From Oscillospiraceae bacterium (GTDB taxonomy: Bacteria; Bacillota; Clostridia; Oscillospirales; Acutalibacteraceae): a stretch of 37,703 nucleotides of DNA. Position numbers and translations under genes: made by a program. Positions 1,262 to 19,568 of the stretch are shown one piece after another. Location of the stretch: positions 1 through 37,703 of the forward strand of contig SVOI01000020.1 in the NCBI GenBank assembly GCA_015066465.1, given 5' to 3'. Each line of letters starts with the position of its first letter. Within the stretch, counting starts at the first letter, position 1. The notes beneath the pieces were generated by a model that saw only the letters and a program-made list of their open reading frames with translations, was not told the DNA's origin and did no database searches.

Positions 1262-1506
1262 AAGTGCTGAGTGCAAAGTGCTGAGTGCTGAGTTAAGGGG
1301 CTACGCCGTAATTGTAATTATTTACAGATAAATGGTAGTTTGTAGTGTCATTTTTGTGGTATATATTAATTAAACATTTGAAAATAATGTGCATCGAGTA
1401 AGAATGCCCGAGTGTACTGAAAAAGGAAATCGCCGTAGTTATTATAATTATAATAGCCGACCGCAGGTCCCGTAACTCAGCACTTTGCACTCAGCACTCA
1501 GCACTT
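1262..1506. mobile_element. Element A: 245-bp gene-less element bounded by inverted 5x7-bp arrays
   Basis: Left arm 1262-1296 is five heptads (aagtgct, gagtgca, aagtgct, gagtgct, gagttaa). The right arm 1472-1506, read on the minus strand, is five heptads of the same kind (aagtgct, gagtgct, gagtgca, aagtgct, gagttac). Inside the left arm lies GGGGCTACGCCGTAATT (1297-1313), identical to the sequence inside the left arm of element B. Inside the right arm lies AATAGCCGACCGCAGGTCCC (1452-1471), related to B's right side. The 175-bp interior has no convincing ORF. It looks like a non-autonomous relative of element B, sitting between xpt and the BMP gene. Confidence 0.75.
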
Positions 1507-1523
1507 TTCAACTCTGGCTTTTT

Positions 1524-1547
1524 GGTGCAGTTAAATCTAACTGCATC
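1524..1547 (+). promoter_or_regulatory. Leader hairpin before the BMP gene
   Basis: An 8-bp perfect stem (TGCAGTTA/TAACTGCA, loop aatc) extends by a wobble and a GC pair and lies 24 bp before the ribosome site. There is only a short T stretch after it. It could be an attenuator or an mRNA 5' stabiliser. No purine aptamer was seen. Confidence 0.4.
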
Positions 1548-1583
1548 TTTAAGATAAATTCATTTCAAACGGAGGTAATTCCA

Positions 1584-2858
1584 ATGAAAAAAGTAATCGC
1601 ACTTGCTCTCGCTCTTGTACTTGCTATTGGTGTTTTAGCTGCTTGCGGCGGCACTGGTGACAATGGCGACGACAACAAAATGCTCGGTATGAGTGAATCT
1701 CCACTCCCAGCTCCTGAAATCACAAAAGATTATGAAATCAAAGAAGATTTCAAAATCGGTTTCATCTGCTTACACGACGAGCAATCAACTTATGACCTCA
1801 ACTTCCTTAATGCTGCTAACAGCGTTCAGGCTGCTTTAGGTCTCACAAACGAACAAGTTATCATCAAGACTAACATTCCTGAAGGTAACGAATGCTACGA
1901 AGCTGCTAAAGACCTTGTTAACCAGGGTTGCAACATCGTTTTCGCTAACTCTTTCGGTCACGAAGACTTTATGATTAAAGCAGCTAAAGAATTCCCAGAA
2001 GTTGAATTCTGCCACGCTACTGGTACTAAGGCTCACACAGAAGGCCTTAAAAACTACCACAATGCTTTCGCTTCTATCTACCAGGGTAGATATTTAGCAG
2101 GTATTGTTGCTGGTATGAAGCTTAACGAAATGATTGAAGCTGGCAAAATTACTGCAGACCAGGCTAAAATGGGTTATGTTGGTGCTTTCACATACGCTGA
2201 AGTTATGTCAGGCTACACATCATTCTATCTTGGTGCAAAATCAGTTTGCCCATCAGTTACAATGGAAGTTCAATTCACAGGTTCTTGGTATGACCCAACT
2301 GAAGAAAAGAACGCTGCTGAAGCTCTTATTAACAACAAATGTGTTCTTATAAGCCAGCACGCTGACTCAATGGGTGCTCCTTCTGCTTGTGAAACTGCAG
2401 GTGTTCCTAACGTTTCTTACAACGGCAGCACTTATGAATCATGCCCAGAAACATTCTTGGTTTCTTCTGCTATTAACTGGGCTCCTTACTTCAACTACAT
2501 CATTGCTCAGGTTAACAAAGGCGAAACTATTGATGCTGACTGGTGCGGTGGTATTGAACAAGGTTCAGTTGTTCTTACAGGTCTTAACCAGGATGTTATT
2601 GCCGAAGGTACTTTAGCAAAGGTTGAAGAAGCTATTACAGGCTTCAGAGCTGGTACTATTAAAGTATTTGATACGAAGAACTTTACAGTTGACGGCAAAG
2701 CTTTAACAACTTATATGGCTGACGTTGATACTGACGCTGCTTACGAAAAAGATACAGAAGCTATTACAGACGGTTACTTCAATGAATCTGCTGACCGTTC
2801 AGCTCCTTACTTTGATGTTAAAATCGATGGTATTAAGCTTCTTAATGAAAAATTCTAA
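1584..2858 (+). CDS. BMP-family nucleoside-binding lipoprotein (ABC transporter)
   Basis: Substrate-binding lipoprotein of the basic membrane protein/PnrA family, which binds purine or other nucleosides outside the membrane for an ABC importer. The start ATG 1584 follows GGAGG (1571-1575). Residues 1-21 form a lipoprotein signal ending VLAAC with lipid-modified Cys21. The mature 403 residues contain typical BMP patches: FKIGFICLHDEQSTYD, NIVFANSFGHEDFM, FASIYQGRYLAGIVAG and KMGYVGAFTYAEV. A stable hairpin follows, then element B, then the ATPase and permease genes at 3527-7112. Binding proteins are usually expressed above their transporter; the hairpin would achieve that. The exact ligand cannot be read from sequence; xpt upstream favours purine nucleosides. 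Confidence 0.93.
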   Translation: MKKVIALALALVLAIGVLAACGGTGDNGDDNKMLGMSESPLPAPEITKDYEIKEDFKIGFICLHDEQSTYDLNFLNAANSVQAALGLTNEQVIIKTNIPEGNECYEAAKDLVNQGCNIVFANSFGHEDFMIKAAKEFPEVEFCHATGTKAHTEGLKNYHNAFASIYQGRYLAGIVAGMKLNEMIEAGKITADQAKMGYVGAFTYAEVMSGYTSFYLGAKSVCPSVTMEVQFTGSWYDPTEEKNAAEALINNKCVLISQHADSMGAPSACETAGVPNVSYNGSTYESCPETFLVSSAINWAPYFNYIIAQVNKGETIDADWCGGIEQGSVVLTGLNQDVIAEGTLAKVEEAITGFRAGTIKVFDTKNFTVDGKALTTYMADVDTDAAYEKDTEAITDGYFNESADRSAPYFDVKIDGIKLLNEKF

Positions 2859-2866
2859 TTTTTCTA

Positions 2867-2898
2867 AAACAATAGGCGGAGAAATCCGCCTATTGTTT
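2867..2898 (+). terminator. Strong hairpin after the BMP gene (partial terminator or stabiliser)
   Basis: Perfect 14-bp stem AAACAATAGGCGGA / TCCGCCTATTGTTT with a GAAA tetraloop. The expected T-tract is cut short because the first heptad of element B begins at the very next base (2899). Confidence 0.85.
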
Positions 2899-3505
2899 GA
2901 ATTGAGAATTAAGAATTGAGAATTAAGAATTGTGGGGCTACGCCGTAATTATATTTTTCTAACAATTAATCCGTTGTTTCGTTTATAGTTTGTTTATAAA
3001 ATATGTTTTATATATACTTCCAAGGAGACTATAATGGGAAATCCTATAAAAGAAAAAAGTTATAAATTCGCAATAAGAATTGTTAACCTTTGCAAATATT
3101 TGAATGAGGAAAAAAGCGAATACATTTTATCAAAACAACTACTGCGAAGTGGTACAAGTATTGGTGCAAATGTGGCTGAATCACAAGCTGCACAGAGTAA
3201 CGCTGATTTTATAAACAAATTAAACATAGCACTAAAAGAAACTTTGGAATCTAAATATTGGATTGAACTATTAACCGAAACAAATTACTTAACAATAGAA
3301 CAAGGCAAATCATTATTAAAAGATTGTACTGAAATTGAAAATATTTTAGCTCAAATCGTCAAAACCACAAGAGAACGACACGGACTTTAATTTTTAAAAT
3401 TCGCAAACCACAAATAAAAAAACAATCCAATTGGTTCTACAAGCCGTTGTTACAATAGCGTCGCAGACCCAAAATTCTTAATTCTCAATTCTAAATTCTT
3501 AATTC
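2899..3505. mobile_element. Element B: Avd-like gene bounded by inverted 5x7-bp arrays
   Basis: Left arm 2899-2933 holds gaattga, gaattaa, gaattga, gaattaa, gaattgt. Right arm 3471-3505, read on the minus strand, holds gaattaa, gaattta, gaattga, gaattaa, gaatttt. Each arm has exactly five units. Inside the left arm is GGGGCTACGCCGTAATT (2934-2950), 17/17 identical to element A. Inside the right arm, on the minus strand, is GGGTCTGCGACGCTATT, resembling A's GGGACCTGCGGTCGGCTATT. The cargo is one four-helix-bundle gene (3034-3390). It separates the BMP gene from its ABC genes. No target-site duplication is obvious. Mobility is inferred from the repeated architecture, not observed. Confidence 0.75.
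3034..3390 (+). CDS. Four-helix-bundle protein of the 23S rRNA IVP / Avd-like family
   Basis: 118 residues, all predicted helical. The family core is visible: LSKQLLRSGTSIGANVAES followed by the second helix pair (NADFINKLNIALKETLESKYW) and a C-terminal helix. Relatives (PF05635/TIGR02436) include ORFs in intervening sequences of 23S rRNA genes and the Avd accessory subunit of diversity-generating retroelements. The molecular function of stand-alone members is unknown to me. The ribosome site is AAGGAG (3022-3027). Here it is the only gene inside element B, with no rRNA gene and no reverse transcriptase anywhere in the window. A second, divergent family member lies at 19161. Confidence 0.88.
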   Translation: MGNPIKEKSYKFAIRIVNLCKYLNEEKSEYILSKQLLRSGTSIGANVAESQAAQSNADFINKLNIALKETLESKYWIELLTETNYLTIEQGKSLLKDCTEIENILAQIVKTTRERHGL

Positions 3506-13491: not shown

Positions 13492-15165
13492 TTATTTCAT
13501 GCCTTCTTCGTATGATTTAATCATCTTTTTAGTCGTGTGACCCGTACGACTTTGAAGTTTTTTTATAATCTTCTCACAAGATTTACCTGTGAAAAGTTTT
13601 ATATCTAACTTCATTTGATTATCAGTTATCGGAGTAACAATTATTTTATCAATAAATTTGTTAACAAAAGCTTTTGATATCAACCCTTCTTTTACTTCAG
13701 CTTTTGCTTGAGTTAATGTCTTTTGTATATCATCCATCCTTTCCTTTAATTCCGATTTAGATAAGAGTTGTTCTTCTAACTCTCTGATTTCCTCAGATAT
13801 TTTTTCAATTTCTGCATCACATTTTCTAGAACTTCTTAAATACTCCGCATCAGAAATTTTTCCTGCTACATTAAAATCTAATAATTTATCTTTTTTCTGC
13901 TCTTCCAAATTTAGTTGTACCTTGTAGTTTTCAATATTTCTTTGTATTTCACCATCCGCAAGTACTTCTTTAAACATTTCTAAATAATCATCAATTAATT
14001 TTTGTATATCTATTTCTAAATCTACAAAAATATCGATTAAAATGTCTTTAACTTCATTTTCATATATCGCAAAACTTTTACAAGAATCTGCACCGTTATT
14101 TATTTTACCGGAACAAACCCATTTACTAACTATTTCTCCGGTATTTCTGTTCTTGGCTTCTTTACGATAATATGATTTACCACAATCTGAGCAAAACAGT
14201 TTCCCAGTTAATAAATTACCGTGATTACATTGCCCTTGTCTGTTTTTTACATCATCGCTTCGACGTTTTAGTATTTCATTAGCCTTATCCCATAAAGCCT
14301 CTTCTACTATTGCAGGAACTATTTCACCTGTTTCATCTTTAAACATTACCCATTCTTCTTCGGGAAGAAAACGTTGTTTTTTAGTAAACATATCAACAAC
14401 TTTCACTCTATTACCTACATAGTAACCTTTATATTTTGGATTTGCAATAATCCCTGACATAGTACTATGAGCGATTTTATTTCCGTTGCGATTTCTATAA
14501 CCTTTTTCCCAAAAAACTTTTTCTAACTGTTTCATACTATATTCATCTGTTGAATATAAAGTAAACAGTTCTCTTACCATTTTAGCTTCTTCTTCATCAA
14601 TTACTAATCTCTTGTTATCTTTTGTATAACCAAAAATTCGATTATTCCCGAGAACAACACCTGATTTTATAGCTTGTTTATGTCCAAAACGTATTCTTTC
14701 CGACATTTTGCGTATTTCTTCTTGTGCAATACTCGACATAATTGTCAGCCTTAATTCACTATCTGGGAAAAGAGTATTTAAATTATCGCTCATAAATAGT
14801 ACACCAACACCAGCACTTAAAAGTTGTCGTGTATATTGCAATGAATCTATTGTGTTTCTTGCAAATCTAGAAATTTCTTTTGTTAAAATCAAGTCAAATG
14901 TTCCACTCTCACCATCTTCTATCATTTTATTAAAATTTTCTCTTTTTCTCGTGGACATCCCAGAAATACCTTCGTCTACATAACCTGGAATAAATGTCCA
15001 TTTAGAATTTTTAGTTATTATCCCTTTGAAATAATCGACTTGATTTTCTAATGAATTTAACTGTTCGTCACTATCACTTGAAACACGAGCATAATATGTA
15101 ACCCGCAAAGGGATATCATAAATCGATTTTGTTTTAAGTTCTTCTCTTATATTATCTATTACCAT
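13492..15165 (-). CDS. Large serine recombinase
   Basis: Site-specific DNA recombinase of the resolvase/invertase superfamily, used by integrative elements. 557 residues. The N-terminal catalytic domain has YARVSSDSDEQ with catalytic Ser29, DEGISG and the Arg-containing ISRFARN loop. The recombinase domain spans about 170-300, followed by a zinc ribbon (Cys325, Cys328, Cys351, Cys362) and a coiled coil (about 395-500). AAAGGAG precedes ATG 15165. It contains no in-frame TAG and ends at TAA, unlike the two genes farther right in this island. It abuts the terminator of the host gene on its left, placing that element edge near 13475-13490. Cognate att sites were not identified. Confidence 0.95.
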   Translation of the reverse strand: MVIDNIREELKTKSIYDIPLRVTYYARVSSDSDEQLNSLENQVDYFKGIITKNSKWTFIPGYVDEGISGMSTRKRENFNKMIEDGESGTFDLILTKEISRFARNTIDSLQYTRQLLSAGVGVLFMSDNLNTLFPDSELRLTIMSSIAQEEIRKMSERIRFGHKQAIKSGVVLGNNRIFGYTKDNKRLVIDEEEAKMVRELFTLYSTDEYSMKQLEKVFWEKGYRNRNGNKIAHSTMSGIIANPKYKGYYVGNRVKVVDMFTKKQRFLPEEEWVMFKDETGEIVPAIVEEALWDKANEILKRRSDDVKNRQGQCNHGNLLTGKLFCSDCGKSYYRKEAKNRNTGEIVSKWVCSGKINNGADSCKSFAIYENEVKDILIDIFVDLEIDIQKLIDDYLEMFKEVLADGEIQRNIENYKVQLNLEEQKKDKLLDFNVAGKISDAEYLRSSRKCDAEIEKISEEIRELEEQLLSKSELKERMDDIQKTLTQAKAEVKEGLISKAFVNKFIDKIIVTPITDNQMKLDIKLFTGKSCEKIIKKLQSRTGHTTKKMIKSYEEGMK

Positions 15166-15179
15166 ATACTTTCTCCTTT

Positions 15180-15226
15180 AGTTCGTTTTATCATCACTAT
15201 ATTTCTAAATATACATCAAACGAACT
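15180..15226. promoter_or_regulatory. Nested inverted repeats before the serine recombinase
   Basis: AGTTCGTTT (15180-15188) and AAACGAACT (15218-15226) are perfect 9-bp arms flanking another palindrome, ATATTTCTAAATAT (15199-15212). The left arm lies a few bases from the recombinase ribosome site. It could be an operator, an attenuating hairpin or a recombinase binding site. Confidence 0.5.
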
Positions 15227-15254
15227 CAAATTTCAATAGAAATAAAATACCAAT

Positions 15255-15425
15255 TTATAGTTTTTTAGAATTATTGCTTTTCATAATTTTGTTAATCATT
15301 TTATTCTTTTCATTTTCAGTAATAGAATTATTAACATACAAATAATTGTTGAAATATAATAATATACTTTCTTCAACAAATTTTTGCTCCTTTAGGAGTT
15401 CGTGTTTAACAACTTTTCCAGCCAT
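15255..15425 (-). CDS. 56-aa protein upstream of the serine recombinase
   Basis: ATG 15425 with a good ribosome site (AAAGGTGAGG); 56 residues, starts MAGKVVKHELLKEQKF and ends at TAA. It is charged and helical with a central hydrophobic heptad pattern (ESILLYFNNYLYVNN). Small helical proteins directly upstream of large serine recombinases are common in clostridial elements, where they may be regulators or directionality factors; that role is only inferred. Same strand as the recombinase and probably cotranscribed. Confidence 0.6.
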   Translation of the reverse strand: MAGKVVKHELLKEQKFVEESILLYFNNYLYVNNSITENEKNKMINKIMKSNNSKKL

Positions 15426-15559
15426 TAAATCACCTCACCTTTCCTAAAAGATAAGTTTGACTTTTTATAAAAAAAATATACATTTTCTTTCTATAAAAAG
15501 CTCATTAAGTTATTAAAAATTTTCATAATTTAATAAAATCCTTTCATAAAATTAAGTTT

Positions 15560-16525
15560 TTAAATCGCCAACATATACGAAGCAACTGTTACATCGTTTC
15601 GCCAGTGGCTTAAGTGAAATACAGAAACTGCCATTAAAGCAAGTTTATCGTATTCTGTAGGTAAATCATTGGCTAAAGCCAACTCTTTATTTTTACCCCT
15701 TAATTTGTAAGTACCATCTATAAGCTCATATTTAAATTTTTTATGTTTAACTTTTCCATCATCATCTGGAACTGCAAATCTTGCTTTTATTTCCTAAATC
15801 AAATTTTCTCTTCCTTCTTCAGTTGATATTACCTCAAGGTAATACTTATAACATCTTTGAGCATTCATTGCTCTTAATGTATGATACGATTGTCTGTTAT
15901 TTAATTCATTTGCACCAAAAATTCTTTCATTTGCTTGTTTACCCTCAAAATATGTTCTTACAAATTCATAATCTTGTGGTAGGATTCGTTGCAGCTGTTT
16001 TTTGCCACCTTTACCACATTTAACTCTTACACAGAAGTGCCCTGATTCATCAATCACTAAATCATCACCTGTAAGTTTCTCAAGTTCGGCTCTTCGAATG
16101 CCGACTCTTTTTTGAAACTCTACAGAATACTTGTATTTAGGATTGCTGAAATCATTGTCACTTCTTTTCTTTTTGTCATTGTTTGTTCTTCCACGTTTAT
16201 AATCAGCAGTACTTCTTATATCTTTTTTTATTTCTCTCATATTTATATTATGGTAACTACAAACCGGAGCAATATATGTATGTATCGTGCTCGGCTAATA
16301 TCCATTTTCTTTAAGATAATCAGCATAAGCTTGTATATGCACTCTACACTCAGCTTTAGTTTGCTAACCATACTTGCTTCTACAGAAATCTATAAACTTC
16401 CTATAGTTTCCAATGTAGATTTTTCTCGTTACATCATTTGGATAAGTTTTTTTGAAATAATCCCTTGCTTCTTCAAATAACATTCTTGAAGTAGTTTTCT
16501 TTCTAACCTTATTCCGTTTAGCCAA
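15560..16525 (-). CDS. Tyrosine recombinase/integrase with three in-frame TAG codons
   Basis: One continuous 322-codon frame runs from TTG 16525 (preceded by AAGGAGGTGG, 16540-16531) to TAA 15562-15560. It is interrupted only by TAG at codons 54 (16366-16364), 77 (16297-16295) and 244 (15796-15794). The translation is a complete tyrosine recombinase. The N-terminal core-binding region includes PSTIHTYIAPV. Box I is GIRRAEL (Arg144/145), box II is H215-T-L-R218, and the C-terminal HLSHWRNDVTVASYMLAI carries His307 and the likely nucleophile Tyr317. The last two residues lie beyond the third TAG, so termination there would leave no active enzyme. There are no frameshifts and no TAA or TGA interruptions. 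Either TAG is decoded as an amino acid when this element is expressed, or the gene has decayed by TAG mutations only. What TAG would encode is unknown; Gln or Lys would fit. Confidence 0.8.
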
Positions 16526-16616
16526 AATACCACCTCCTTTCATTATTTAATTTATATGAAAGATTTATTTCTCACGGCTCTTTCTACCGTGCCCGAGCCA
16601 AAGCTCTGTTAAACTG

Positions 16617-16769
16617 TCAATGTCTCCATTTTTCTGATATATGTAGATATATCGCCGAGAAAAGGCTGTCCATACACTTTGACATTATGTGTACGCTACC
16701 GTGAAGCAAAACTGAATTTTTATTTTCATATATATCTTTTTTTATTTTATCTATATACAAAAAACTCAA
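16617..16769 (-). CDS. Possible 50-aa protein
   Basis: TTG 16769 preceded by AAGGGAGAAGG; 50 residues rich in Lys and aromatic residues (MSFLYIDKIKKDIYENKNSV...), ending at TGA. It lies on the same strand between the Rep and integrase genes. Codon content looks coding, but no family is recognised; it may be chance. Confidence 0.35.
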   Translation of the reverse strand: MSFLYIDKIKKDIYENKNSVLLHGSVHIMSKCMDSLFSAIYLHISEKWRH

Positions 16770-16778
16770 TTTCCTTCT

Positions 16779-16889
16779 CCCTTACTGGTTATTCTCCAAA
16801 TTCTTCGAATTTATCCAATAACCGTAAGGGCTTCTCACTTTCTTCTAAAATCAAATCCTACATCTTTTATAAAGTGAGAACAGGTTATT
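16779..16889. other. Mutually exclusive hairpins between Rep and integrase
   Basis: AATAACCGTAAGGG (16817-16830) can pair with CCCTTACTGGTTATT (16779-16793, one bulge). Alternatively AATAACC (16817-16823) plus TTCTCACTTT (16832-16841) pairs with AAAGTGAGAA (16871-16880) plus GGTTATT (16883-16889). The shared AATAACC makes the folds exclusive. Such switches fit an attenuator, countertranscript control or a single-strand origin of a rolling-circle replicon. A 24-residue frame with a TAG second codon (16863-16789, minus) lies inside. Confidence 0.55.
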
Positions 16890-17029
16890 TCTTATAAATT
16901 CAGAAACAACCGTAACCGATTAAATCGGCTACATAGATTGATTTACTGTATCAATCCAATTAAACTCCTTTCATCTTTATCTTTACATATGTAAGTATGA
17001 CAGATGGCAAAATCAAACAAGAAACACTA

Positions 17030-17923
17030 TTATTTCAATTCCTTGTTCATATAAAGTTCGAACTCTTGATAAACAGAAACATTACCAAAACTTTTATCAT
17101 TTTCTGCAAAGTTAATGGGTATGTCTCCATTTATCTTAATTCCTTCCAAAGCCTCTTTATATGTTTTGTATTCTTTCTTAGCTCTTTTTAAACCTTTGCT
17201 ATGTCTTATCATTCTGAAGTTTTGAGGATACAACTCAAGACGTGCATTTTTTACACACTTCTTTTTATTGAAGTCACCATCTACACACTTATATGTCGCT
17301 ATTTTATCAACATCTCTTGTTGGAAAAGCAAGTTTATATTCTTCTTCCGACATATCACATAAATGAGAAGTCAGATAAGCAACTATATTCTTTATATCTT
17401 CATTCTTTTTTATTTGAGTAATATATGCTTCACCTTTTGTCCATAACTCTTTTTTTATATTAGGAGCAGTTTTATCAAAATACATTAAGAAATGACAATG
17501 ATAACTTCTATCCGCCCCTATTTCTATTGCTACTGAATATTTAATTTCAAAATCAGGATAGTGACATCTCAACTTCTTTATATACGCTTTTATATCTTTA
17601 TTGAGATTTTCAATCTCATACTCTGGATTATCGTAAGTTAAAGTAATAAATAAACTTTCCTAAGAACAGTTAAAATTAGAAAAGATAATTTCTTTATCTT
17701 TCTTACGTGTATTATGTAAAGACTTTTTATTAGAAGCTCTGCTTTTTCCTTTTTTATTTGGTTCGCTTTCATATACCTCTCCCGTTTTTGTGTTTGCATA
17801 ATGGTCTTTATCCACTCGAGAAACAGAACCTGCTTTACCTTTAAGTTCTGAAAACATAATTTCAGTAAAGTTGTTCATTTTAGTTACTTTTACAATTACA
17901 TCGTTTTTGATTGACATTTTCAT
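17030..17923 (-). CDS. Rolling-circle replication initiator-like protein with one in-frame TAG
   Basis: A single 298-codon frame runs from ATG 17923 (AAAGGTAGG upstream) to TAA 17030, interrupted only by TAG at codon 88 (17662-17660). The N-terminal 87 residues are basic. Immediately after the TAG comes motif 1, FITLTYDNP (92-100). Then comes the metal-binding HUH motif in DRSYHCHFLMYF (His142-x-His144), typical of Rep endonucleases of rolling-circle plasmids and related elements. A helical C-terminal half follows. Internal initiation after the TAG (a TTG at 17572) would lose motif 1, so a functional Rep needs the TAG to be read through. The neighbouring integrase shows the same behaviour. 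Alternative: a decayed gene. Confidence 0.75.
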
Positions 17924-19160: not shown

Positions 19161-19526
19161 TTGATTTATAAAGATTTGATTTTATGGCAGAAATCAATGG
19201 AATTAGTAAAAGAAGTTTATTTATTAATCAAAAAACTGCCTCAAGAAGAAAATTACGCTTTATCAAGTCAAATGCGAAGAGCTGTTGTTTCAATTCCTTC
19301 AAATATAGCTGAAGGCAGTGGAAGAAAATCACAAAAAGACTTCATACGATTTTTAGACATAGCTCGTGGCTCTCAATACGAATTAGAAACACAGTTACAT
19401 ATTTGTATTATGTTAAATTATCTTACTGAAGATGAAACAAAAAAAGTATTTTCATTATTGTCTGAAGTAGGAAAATTATTAAATTCATTTATTAAAAGAA
19501 ATGATACTAACAGTACTAGTGCCTAG
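19161..19526 (+). CDS. Four-helix-bundle protein of the 23S rRNA IVP / Avd-like family (second copy, element C)
   Basis: 121 residues from TTG 19161 (AAAGGGG at 19147-19153). Family core: LILWQKSMELVKEVY, then SSQMRRAVVSIPSNIAEGSG, then KDFIRFLDIARGSQYELETQ. It shares the SxQxxRxxxSIxxNxAE pattern with the element B protein but is clearly another subfamily (WQKSMELV type). It has its own promoter. Its last codons and its TAG stop (19524-19526) lie inside a five-unit heptad array, as if the array were part of the element's 3' end. No matching left array was found upstream, so the element may be truncated or have another architecture. Function unknown. Confidence 0.88.
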   Translation: MIYKDLILWQKSMELVKEVYLLIKKLPQEENYALSSQMRRAVVSIPSNIAEGSGRKSQKDFIRFLDIARGSQYELETQLHICIMLNYLTEDETKKVFSLLSEVGKLLNSFIKRNDTNSTSA

Positions 19527-19545
19527 CACCTGATACCTAGTATCT
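19511..19545. repeat. Five degenerate heptads at the end of element C
   Basis: cagtact, agtgcct, agcacct, gatacct, agtatct: exactly five 7-bp units, as in the right arms of elements A and B. Read on the minus strand they are agatact, aggtatc, aggtgct, aggcact, agtactg. They end 11 bp before the ribosome site of the next gene. Confidence 0.7.
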
Positions 19546-19568
19546 GATTATCAAAGGAGAGATTTATA

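Follow-up and report, generated by a model that had tools for sequence, protein, structure and literature searches.

Paired heptad arrays around IVP genes in small bacterial elements, and an IVP residue that predicts one heptad base

We describe a family of small elements represented by two copies, A and B, in a stretch of 37,703 nt (hereafter the window) from a gut bacterium of the Oscillospiraceae (GenBank assembly GCA_015066465.1, contig SVOI01000020.1; in our labelling contig C65 of genome G000, an assembly of 2.53 Mb in 92 contigs that is 80.6% complete). Arrays of 7-nt units (heptads) flank genes of the IVP family (PF05635) in several phyla; five is the commonest number of units, and the two ends of an element share the type of heptad without sharing a register. 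One column of the IVP predicts base 5 of the heptad, also at held-out loci, and this covariation is new here. We consider it probable that A and B belong to a mobile family in which an IVP pentamer reads each end, perhaps with one protomer per heptad.

Element A (1263-1505) and element B (2900-3504) have inverted arms of the form ARTNNNN (R, purine) four times plus a fifth ART triplet, 31 nt in all, followed by TNN, GG and a mini-hairpin. In A the left arm (1263..1293, + strand) reads AGTGCTG AGTGCAA AGTGCTG AGTGCTG AGT and the right arm (1475..1505, - strand), read inward, AGTGCTG AGTGCTG AGTGCAA AGTGCTG AGT; in B the left arm (2900..2930, + strand) reads AATTGAG AATTAAG AATTGAG AATTAAG AAT and the right arm (3474..3504, - strand), again inward, AATTAAG AATTTAG AATTGAG AATTAAG AAT. 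A preliminary description of this DNA had assigned five 7-bp units to each arm; five ART at a spacing of 7 are indeed there, and they make only four full heptads and a triplet. It had also held that the heptads of A and B differ completely, which is not so, as AGTGCTG and AATTGAG share ART. A 17-nt left subterminal motif with the mini-hairpin GGC.TAC.GCC, GGGGCTACGCCGTAATT, is identical in A (1297..1313, + strand) and B (2934..2950, + strand), as had been noticed, and a search of the own genome for it gave 17 copies with at most two mismatches and none of the reversed pattern. What had been called a GGG(G/A/T)CT-type subterminal sequence is more aptly taken as GG followed by a hairpin with a loop of mostly 3 nt and with stems that, in the comparison of ends, vary with compensation (e.g. 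GGC.TAC.GCC, GACC.TGC.GGTC, AAGGC.TTC.GCCTT, AACGC.TAC.GCGTT, AAGTCC.TGC.GGACTT and others). The right hairpin of A is GACC.TGC.GGTC, read inward (1459..1469, - strand), and on the right of B we read, by eye, GGG and GTC.TGC.GAC (3458..3470, - strand). Because the latter hairpin scores below the cut-off, the end scan of the window pairs A and misses B, whose right end was read by eye. As a control for chance, the reversed window gave no paired element and 20 dinucleotide-block shuffles gave one end and no pair.

The core of A (1314..1458, + strand) resembles, by eye, the cores of loci L010 and L011, and the list of open reading frames of at least 70 aa has none confined to it, in agreement with the earlier view that A encodes nothing. 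B carries a gene (3034..3390, + strand) for a four-helix IVP of 118 aa, with Ala52 in the column that goes with base 5. A profile search matched this protein to PF05635 with 100.1 bits (E 1e-28; cut-off 33.8) and it matched 2rld with an E of 1.8e-38; its predicted structure is a clean four-helix bundle (pLDDT, a confidence score, 96.7), so the earlier identification as an Avd/IVP-like four-helix protein was right. Both elements lie between protein-coding genes and not inside a 23S rRNA gene, and an Rfam search of the window gave zero matches at the gathering threshold.

Within the genus, loci were gathered because of motif, IVP or core, and related copies among them are not independent. A scan for hairpin, GG and period-7 array over the loci fetched by then gave 203 distinct ends, with an ART run at spacing 7 of five in 122, four in 13, six or more in 11, three in 12 and none to two in 45. 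Five is thus the commonest number, and not the rule that the "exactly five" of a strict plan had implied. The A and T of the inner four copies are invariant by selection in the 146 ends that have four or more ART; informative are the bases between them and the sharp outer boundary. The end scan yielded 50 paired inverted elements, and none in reversed sequences. Five ART were present at both ends of 31 of 40 paired elements, in 76/124 arms of a mixed set and in 48/76 arms outside the genus.

Far relatives were collected by scanning a species-genome collection with an IVP alignment and the pattern [RK][SC]GTSIGAN, and the best 80 of at least 588 matching stretches came from Bacillota, Bacteroidota, Cyanobacteriota, Acidobacteriota, Ignavibacteriota, Planctomycetota and others. 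After removal of three genus records 77 loci remained, 66 of them with 360 bp on both sides. Period-7 arrays flanked these IVP genes on 112/132 sides, and on both sides at 48/66 loci, against 19/138 of the control outer stretches. The best period among 5 to 14 on 124 strong sides was 7 in 106 cases and 14 in 15, and the array length was 28-38 nt in 73/128, with a peak at 32. The consensus heptads of the two sides agreed at 6.28 of 7 positions, against 4.37 (54 loci; 0/10000). Heptads also flank the cyanobacterial IVP genes at L263 and L316, and 33-nt arrays are found at both ends at L481 and at the Nostoc plasmid loci L482 (NZ_CP040273.1) and L484 (NZ_CP026682.1), where perfect TAATTCG or CAATTCG arrays stand on both sides of the gene. 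Five of the six plasmid loci have period-7 arrays on both sides, and the Nostoc locus L483 is weak. Cyanobacterial heptanucleotide repeats go by the name STRR, a class into which the heptads flanking cyanobacterial IVP genes fit.

The two ends were compared in 40 of the 50 paired elements; of the ten left out, nine had an end with fewer than three ART and one was cut short. The agreement at variable positions was 0.796 within elements and 0.474 between elements (0/10000 permutations), which bears out the earlier observation that both ends carry the same type of heptad, and the consensus heptad was the same at both ends in 23/40 elements (expected 0.126). The hairpin was the same at both ends in 1/40 (expected 0.158). 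When one arm was shifted by one or two units, the agreement was still 0.77-0.81; the left and right arrays differ in the order of their units, and inside one heptad class the agreement was 0.865 within and 0.886 between elements. What counts is therefore the shared word; the data show no sign of pairing in register or of copying from end to end. Two elements with clearly mismatched ends, L142 and L178 (0.43 each), were kept among the 40, and three that look mismatched, L137, L200 and L218, were among the ten dropped, the right ends of L137 and L200 being perhaps false. In line with the result for paired elements, 35 IVP loci of the genus with arrays on both sides had a left-right similarity of 6.31 of 7, against 4.04 (0/10000). 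That both ends must fit the same reading protein is the better explanation.

The relation between IVP and heptad was scored column by column, with control for protein identity, on a training set of 62 IVPs (23 from the genus and 39 others) with ART-type arrays at both ends. The top pair was heptad base 5 with the IVP column of Ala52 of B, three places after the Glu of GTSIGANxxE: mutual information over entropy (MI/H) was 0.75, the next value being 0.50, and the identity-controlled effect was 0.394, the next being 0.151. In the training counts Arg went with C in 16/18, Gln with G in 14/14, Gly with A in 7/8 and Tyr with A in 3/3, while Asn was found with C in four and G in four, and Ala with A in three and T in two. 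A code (Arg and Lys with C; Gln with G; Gly, Tyr, Cys and Phe with A) was fixed before the held-out test, for which we took 13 loci from viral contigs, loci from 398 genomes of the phylum and 300 of the family, and 60 further stretches, minus ten genus loci. Among these 121 loci, 120 had an IVP reading frame and two were duplicates; 38 could be used, 25 of them with a residue that the code covers. The code was correct in 20/25 (Arg 5/6, Lys 2/2, Gln 5/5, Tyr 7/7, Cys 1/5), whereas shuffles, which ignore relatedness, gave a mean of 8.2 and a maximum of 17, with 0/10000 reaching 20. Pooled over 100 IVPs, Arg or Lys went with C in 24/27, Gln with G in 19/19, Tyr with A in 10/10 and Gly with A in 7/8, and the Arg-C and Gln-G pairs are found in both Bacillota and Bacteroidota. 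A second column, that of V109 of B, was picked out post hoc on the pooled set, Thr being accompanied by G at base 6 in 16/17. In the predicted model residue 52 is in the loop between helices 2 and 3 and V109 is near the end of helix 4, so that both would lie at the same pole of the up-down bundle.

The code also has a bearing on the relation between A and B. At base 5 the heptads of B have A in four, G in three and T in one, with Ala52 in the protein, whereas A has C at this base, and the IVPs that go with the word of A have Arg (L033 and L086). A is therefore probably not a dependant of B; the pairing of the two implied in the preliminary description looks wrong, since C at base 5 goes with IVPs of the Arg/Lys type and B combines Ala52 with AATTNAG. 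The reader of A is probably missing from its own genome or was not assembled there. The arms of gene-less elements in genome G005 are identical to those of IVPs in the same genome in 18/18 cases, and the gene-less arms of G000 match the IVPs of G005 in 30/30.

The distribution of copies points to mobility. PF05635 has nine genes in the own genome and is present in 20 of the 22 genus genomes. The gene-less core of L013 gave 59 BLAST matches in G000, 72 in G005, 52 in G006, 62 in G012 and 52 in G015, and 0-5 in the other 17 genomes; matches exceed copies because some cores match on both strands, and G000, G005, G006 and G012 are only 80-83% complete. Both elements lie in an operon-like stretch, A between an xpt-like gene and a gene for a BMP-type lipoprotein, and B between the terminator of that lipoprotein gene and an ABC gene (gene names were given by eye, with no family search). 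Among 18 relatives with the same operon, judged by eye, a heptad element is present at the site of A in three (G005, G006 and G015, with three IVP genes and three heptad sets) and in none of the other 15. At the site of B, again by eye, G005 has another element, G014 has a short inverted heptad stem without a core, and heptads were not seen in the remaining 16 of 18 relatives. The site of L007 is empty in G015, with 14 bp between the flanks, and holds 91 bp without heptads in G014 and other elements in G005, G006 and G012. The cores of G000 and G005 at this site rank about 63 to 94 of 101 against the other site mates, and only the G006 and G012 loci rank each other first or second (each locus holds several cores). 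We rejected the view that elements at one site are orthologous, as site mates are mostly not nearest relatives; repeated insertion at one spot is therefore likelier than rewriting in place, and insertion seems to recur at the same spots, with junctions, by eye, in T/A-rich stretches. The proposal that A and B represent a family of small elements is thus borne out, with gene-bearing and gene-less members that are present or absent as units, and the comparison of occupied with empty sites that was suggested with it did find empty sites.

Some further features of the copies and their surroundings were observed. The hairpin word TTGTAGGGGATGACCTTTGGTCTCCCGC stands directly outside A (1233-1260), and by eye L010 and L011 have similar words at their side, which suggests a further repeat family adjacent to these elements. 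Terminators were seen directly beside L001, L009, L013 and B, by eye only and without a control. Around the IVP genes of L022, L024 and L025 the arms have another architecture, with heptad-like words (ATTTCAC, ACTTCATT and AACATCACT) alternating with mini-hairpins, and the IVP arms of L019 have a period of 9 and those of L067 one of 8 instead of 7 (partly by eye).

The number of units has a counterpart in the protein. The solved relatives 2rld and 2gsc, the latter being XCC0516, an IVP-family protein of Xanthomonas campestris, have five chains per entry each. The title of Lin 2006, on Xcc0516, as cited in PMC10053308, speaks of "five four-helix bundles". The equal number of protomers and heptads, five, suggests that each protomer takes one heptad at each end. 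In the mechanism that we propose, the only gene of the family, when present, is that of the IVP, and each end usually has five heptads and, in this genus, a mini-hairpin. One IVP pentamer would bind each end, and the IVP would accept only elements of which both ends carry its word, so that gene-less copies such as A could be read in trans by a matching IVP. The synapsed ends might then open as single strands with the mini-hairpins extruded, and a host enzyme might cut and rejoin them, which is the most speculative step. A reading protein explains the shared word, the free order of units, the preference for five and the retention of arms by gene-less copies. On B-DNA heptads spaced by 7 bp, two thirds of a turn, would be 240 degrees apart, so a planar ring with equal contacts would be a better fit to a single strand of DNA or RNA than to a double strand of DNA. 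Contacts of Arg or Lys to G are familiar. These residues go with C on the ART strand and so with G on its complement, which may be the strand that is read. A wider claim, that this is a class of elements without a known recombinase domain, in which the pentameric IVP is a programmable reader, single residue changes direct the protein to a new word, many heptameric repeats and 23S intervening sequences are members or relics, and the IVP alone or with a host enzyme moves the element, is tentative and, taken as a whole, somewhat more doubtful than not.

Several observations weigh against the mechanism that we propose. Arrays on both sides were lacking at 56/120 held-out loci, with 24 more lacking the ART phase, and 61 of 96 unique IVP loci of the genus have no period-7 arrays on both sides; of the far arrays, 41/128 are longer than 38 nt and 14/128 shorter than 28 nt. 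The held-out set keeps relatives of training sequences, only identical proteins having been removed, and Cys, assigned to A from two training sequences, failed there. Of 17 pairs with different residues at 70% identity or more, 13 still have base 5 in common. A tree test found one independent pair on well-supported branches, few branches being supported, and an association of Glu or Asp with G at base 7 (17/22 pooled) found no support in two independent pairs. In a nearest-neighbour test column 54 had a same-residue success of 83/98, the highest of the ten rows listed; as two other columns gave larger differences, the test in this form does not set column 54 apart. A further idea, that base 5 is free where the residue is small, was dropped as not significant (mean entropy 0.88 for Ala against 0.26 for Arg; pooled p 0.22). 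The IVPs of the own genome, 80.6% complete, match only 14/30 of its gene-less arms at six or more of 7 bases. At the sites compared, where the flanks have diverged, a target-site duplication was not resolved. No nuclease, ligase or polymerase linked to the family was found in searches aimed at reverse transcriptase and Y1 only, and mobility therefore rests on copy number and empty sites. Finally, A and B fold as RNA far better than shuffles do (z -8.6 and -9.6).

This folding agrees with an RNA stem, in which pairing of the arms in the transcript would let the insert fold away or be cut by RNase III, the IVP being incidental or an RNA-binding protein. The 23S rRNA intervening sequence (IVS) of Coxiella burnetii, with a 28-bp terminal stem, heptameric repeats before the S23p gene and cutting by RNase III in vitro, fits the same picture in the part of its description that was accessible (PMC4990558). 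Since the arms pair as RNA, a stem stays a rival to the reading protein. We consider it unlikely as the whole explanation: pairing should favour register, and the agreement of 0.796 in register is no higher than the 0.77-0.81 of shifted arms, while the recurrent ART, the count of five and the covariation of residue and base would all be left unexplained by a stem alone.

If IVP and heptads merely travelled together, similar proteins would have similar heptads without any contact between them. The identity of IVPs does correlate with the similarity of their heptads overall (Mantel 0.541, 0/2000), and one of the points given above, the sharing of base 5 at 70% identity or more mostly regardless of the residue, fits such co-inheritance, for which the tree test with its single independent pair also leaves room. 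Yet one column stands far above the others after identity control, and at 45-70% identity base 5 is shared in 58-88% of the pairs with the same residue and in 20-31% of those with different residues, i.e. about 2.8 to 3.9 times as often. Parsimony on the best, weakly supported tree gives nine changes of Arg/Lys and eight of Gln, and the code predicts held-out loci. Co-inheritance without contact is thus quite improbable, and recognition of the heptad by the IVP is the reading that we retain.

For a retroelement or a Y1 transposase that moves the elements in trans, with the IVP as a helper, a precedent is seen in Avd of diversity-generating retroelements, which the IVP family resembles in the portion of PMC10053308 that we could consult, and in REP/RAYT systems; moreover, G005 and G015, both rich in copies, have Y1 genes. 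Neither enzyme, however, tracks the elements, although several genomes are incomplete. The reverse transcriptase domain RVT_1 was found in 4/22 genomes of the genus, and G005, G006, G012 and G015, with their many copies, were not among them; no Y1 gene was found in the incomplete genomes G006 and G012. The two Y1 loci that were read through, in G005 and G015, show GGGGACGG repeats of their own, and at six Y1 loci (four true Y1 genes and two false) the end scan gave no heptad end. Mini-hairpins beside GG do recall REP ends. A reverse transcriptase or Y1 enzyme as the common partner was rejected, and we regard such a driver as rather unlikely. The Y1 matches of G000 (weak) and G014 were read by eye as AraC-like proteins. 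RAYT-like Y1 genes among GGGGACGGTTCT repeats of their own were seen at L232 and L233.

The preliminary description had suggested that heptads are renewed or matched at the two ends independently of the core, for example with the insertion site as template or by copying of one end onto the other. Heptads can change under a constant core: beside one terminator, G005 and G006 have near-identical cores and the same type of right arm with different left arms (by eye), so arms can change while the core stays, and the cores of L012 and L013 are 85% identical with different heptads. Heptads and core can thus be uncoupled. Templating is unsupported, since one left array, CTG-CAA-CTG-CTG, recurs at different sites (A, L001, L007, L009 and L010), and copying is unsupported because unit orders differ, agreement is as high out of register as in it and the likeness within an element is no higher than that within its class; moreover, only one arm changed in the case of G005 and G006. 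Renewal is therefore a very remote explanation. Slippage of simple-sequence repeats that gather near genes would account for some long arrays (15 and 6 ART in one genus pair, up to 23 ART elsewhere) and deserves hardly any credence, given a length peak of 31-33 nt, arms inverted around a gene or core, units that mostly follow ART, 50 paired elements against none in reversed sequences, and a best period of 7 or 14 on nearly all strong sides.

Elsewhere in the window there is a second IVP gene (19161..19526, + strand), of a bAvd-like branch, that matches PF05635 with an E of 4.6e-42 and PF22296 with an E of 1.4e-9, just under the cut-off. Behind it lies an AG-type heptad array (19516..19548, - strand) with, by eye, about five AG at spacing 7, which the period scan did not pick, and there is no clear array on the left; this may be a decayed element or one with an unrecognised left arm. 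A coding-like stretch at the contig start (29-521) is a tandem duplication with 1.9 copies of 254 bp at 96%, and serine-recombinase-like and replication-like genes (by eye) suggest that 13492-17572 is an integrated mobile element.

Among known systems, miniature inverted-repeat transposable elements (MITEs) of DDE transposons have terminal inverted repeats in common with the family (50 pairs, none in reversed sequences). REP/BIME with RAYT and IS200/IS605 are known for inverted end pairs with small hairpins and for high copy number; only the present family has heptad arrays, and no Y1 gene tracks it. TRAP and other ring proteins bind regularly spaced triplets, one per protomer, whereas the proposed IVP ring would be five-fold, would bind the ends of a DNA element and would have its specificity set by an amino acid that varies between copies. 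One residue for one base, read in a usual number of units, would make a simple recognition system. The bAvd protein of diversity-generating retroelements (PDB 4DWL; PMC10053308, as far as accessible) is of a related four-helix family, and no reverse transcriptase, template or variable repeat was seen with A or B.

Heptad arrays as such have been described before, in the following cases known to us from parts of the papers and compared by description only. Heptameric repeats, which have seen no detailed study, are over-represented in the genomes of bacteria, and those of Xanthomonas (GGGAATC; mostly four units, with some inverted pairs) and Nostoc (GGGGA(C/T)T) are intergenic, with no link to mobile elements made in that part (PMC4692102); Geobacter metallireducens has 49 elements with four tandem GGGACCG heptads (PMC2700814). 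They are intergenic like A and B, and the accessible parts of PMC4692102 and PMC2700814 make no link to the IVP. Apart from the paper on the Coxiella IVS, we found no literature linking IVP genes with heptad arrays in general or reporting a code, in a search that mostly left out subscription papers. The link made here gives an old protein family and the unexplained heptameric repeats of bacteria a testable role.

The closest comparison is with the 23S IVS, found over 25 years ago and still called unclear in function and origin (PMC4990558, in the part consulted, as for what follows). In C. burnetii the IVS combines a terminal stem and an IVP gene with tandem heptameric repeats, the number of which differs between strains. 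Like A and B it is a small insert with terminal inverted repeats that pair, a gene for IVP/S23p and heptameric repeats at the left end; A and B differ in lying between protein genes and in having arrays of the same word, usually with five ART, at both ends, and a residue-base code has no mention there for the 23S IVS. The origin of 23S rRNA intervening sequences thereby becomes a directly testable question, and the Coxiella IVS looks like a relative of the present elements with a site in rRNA.

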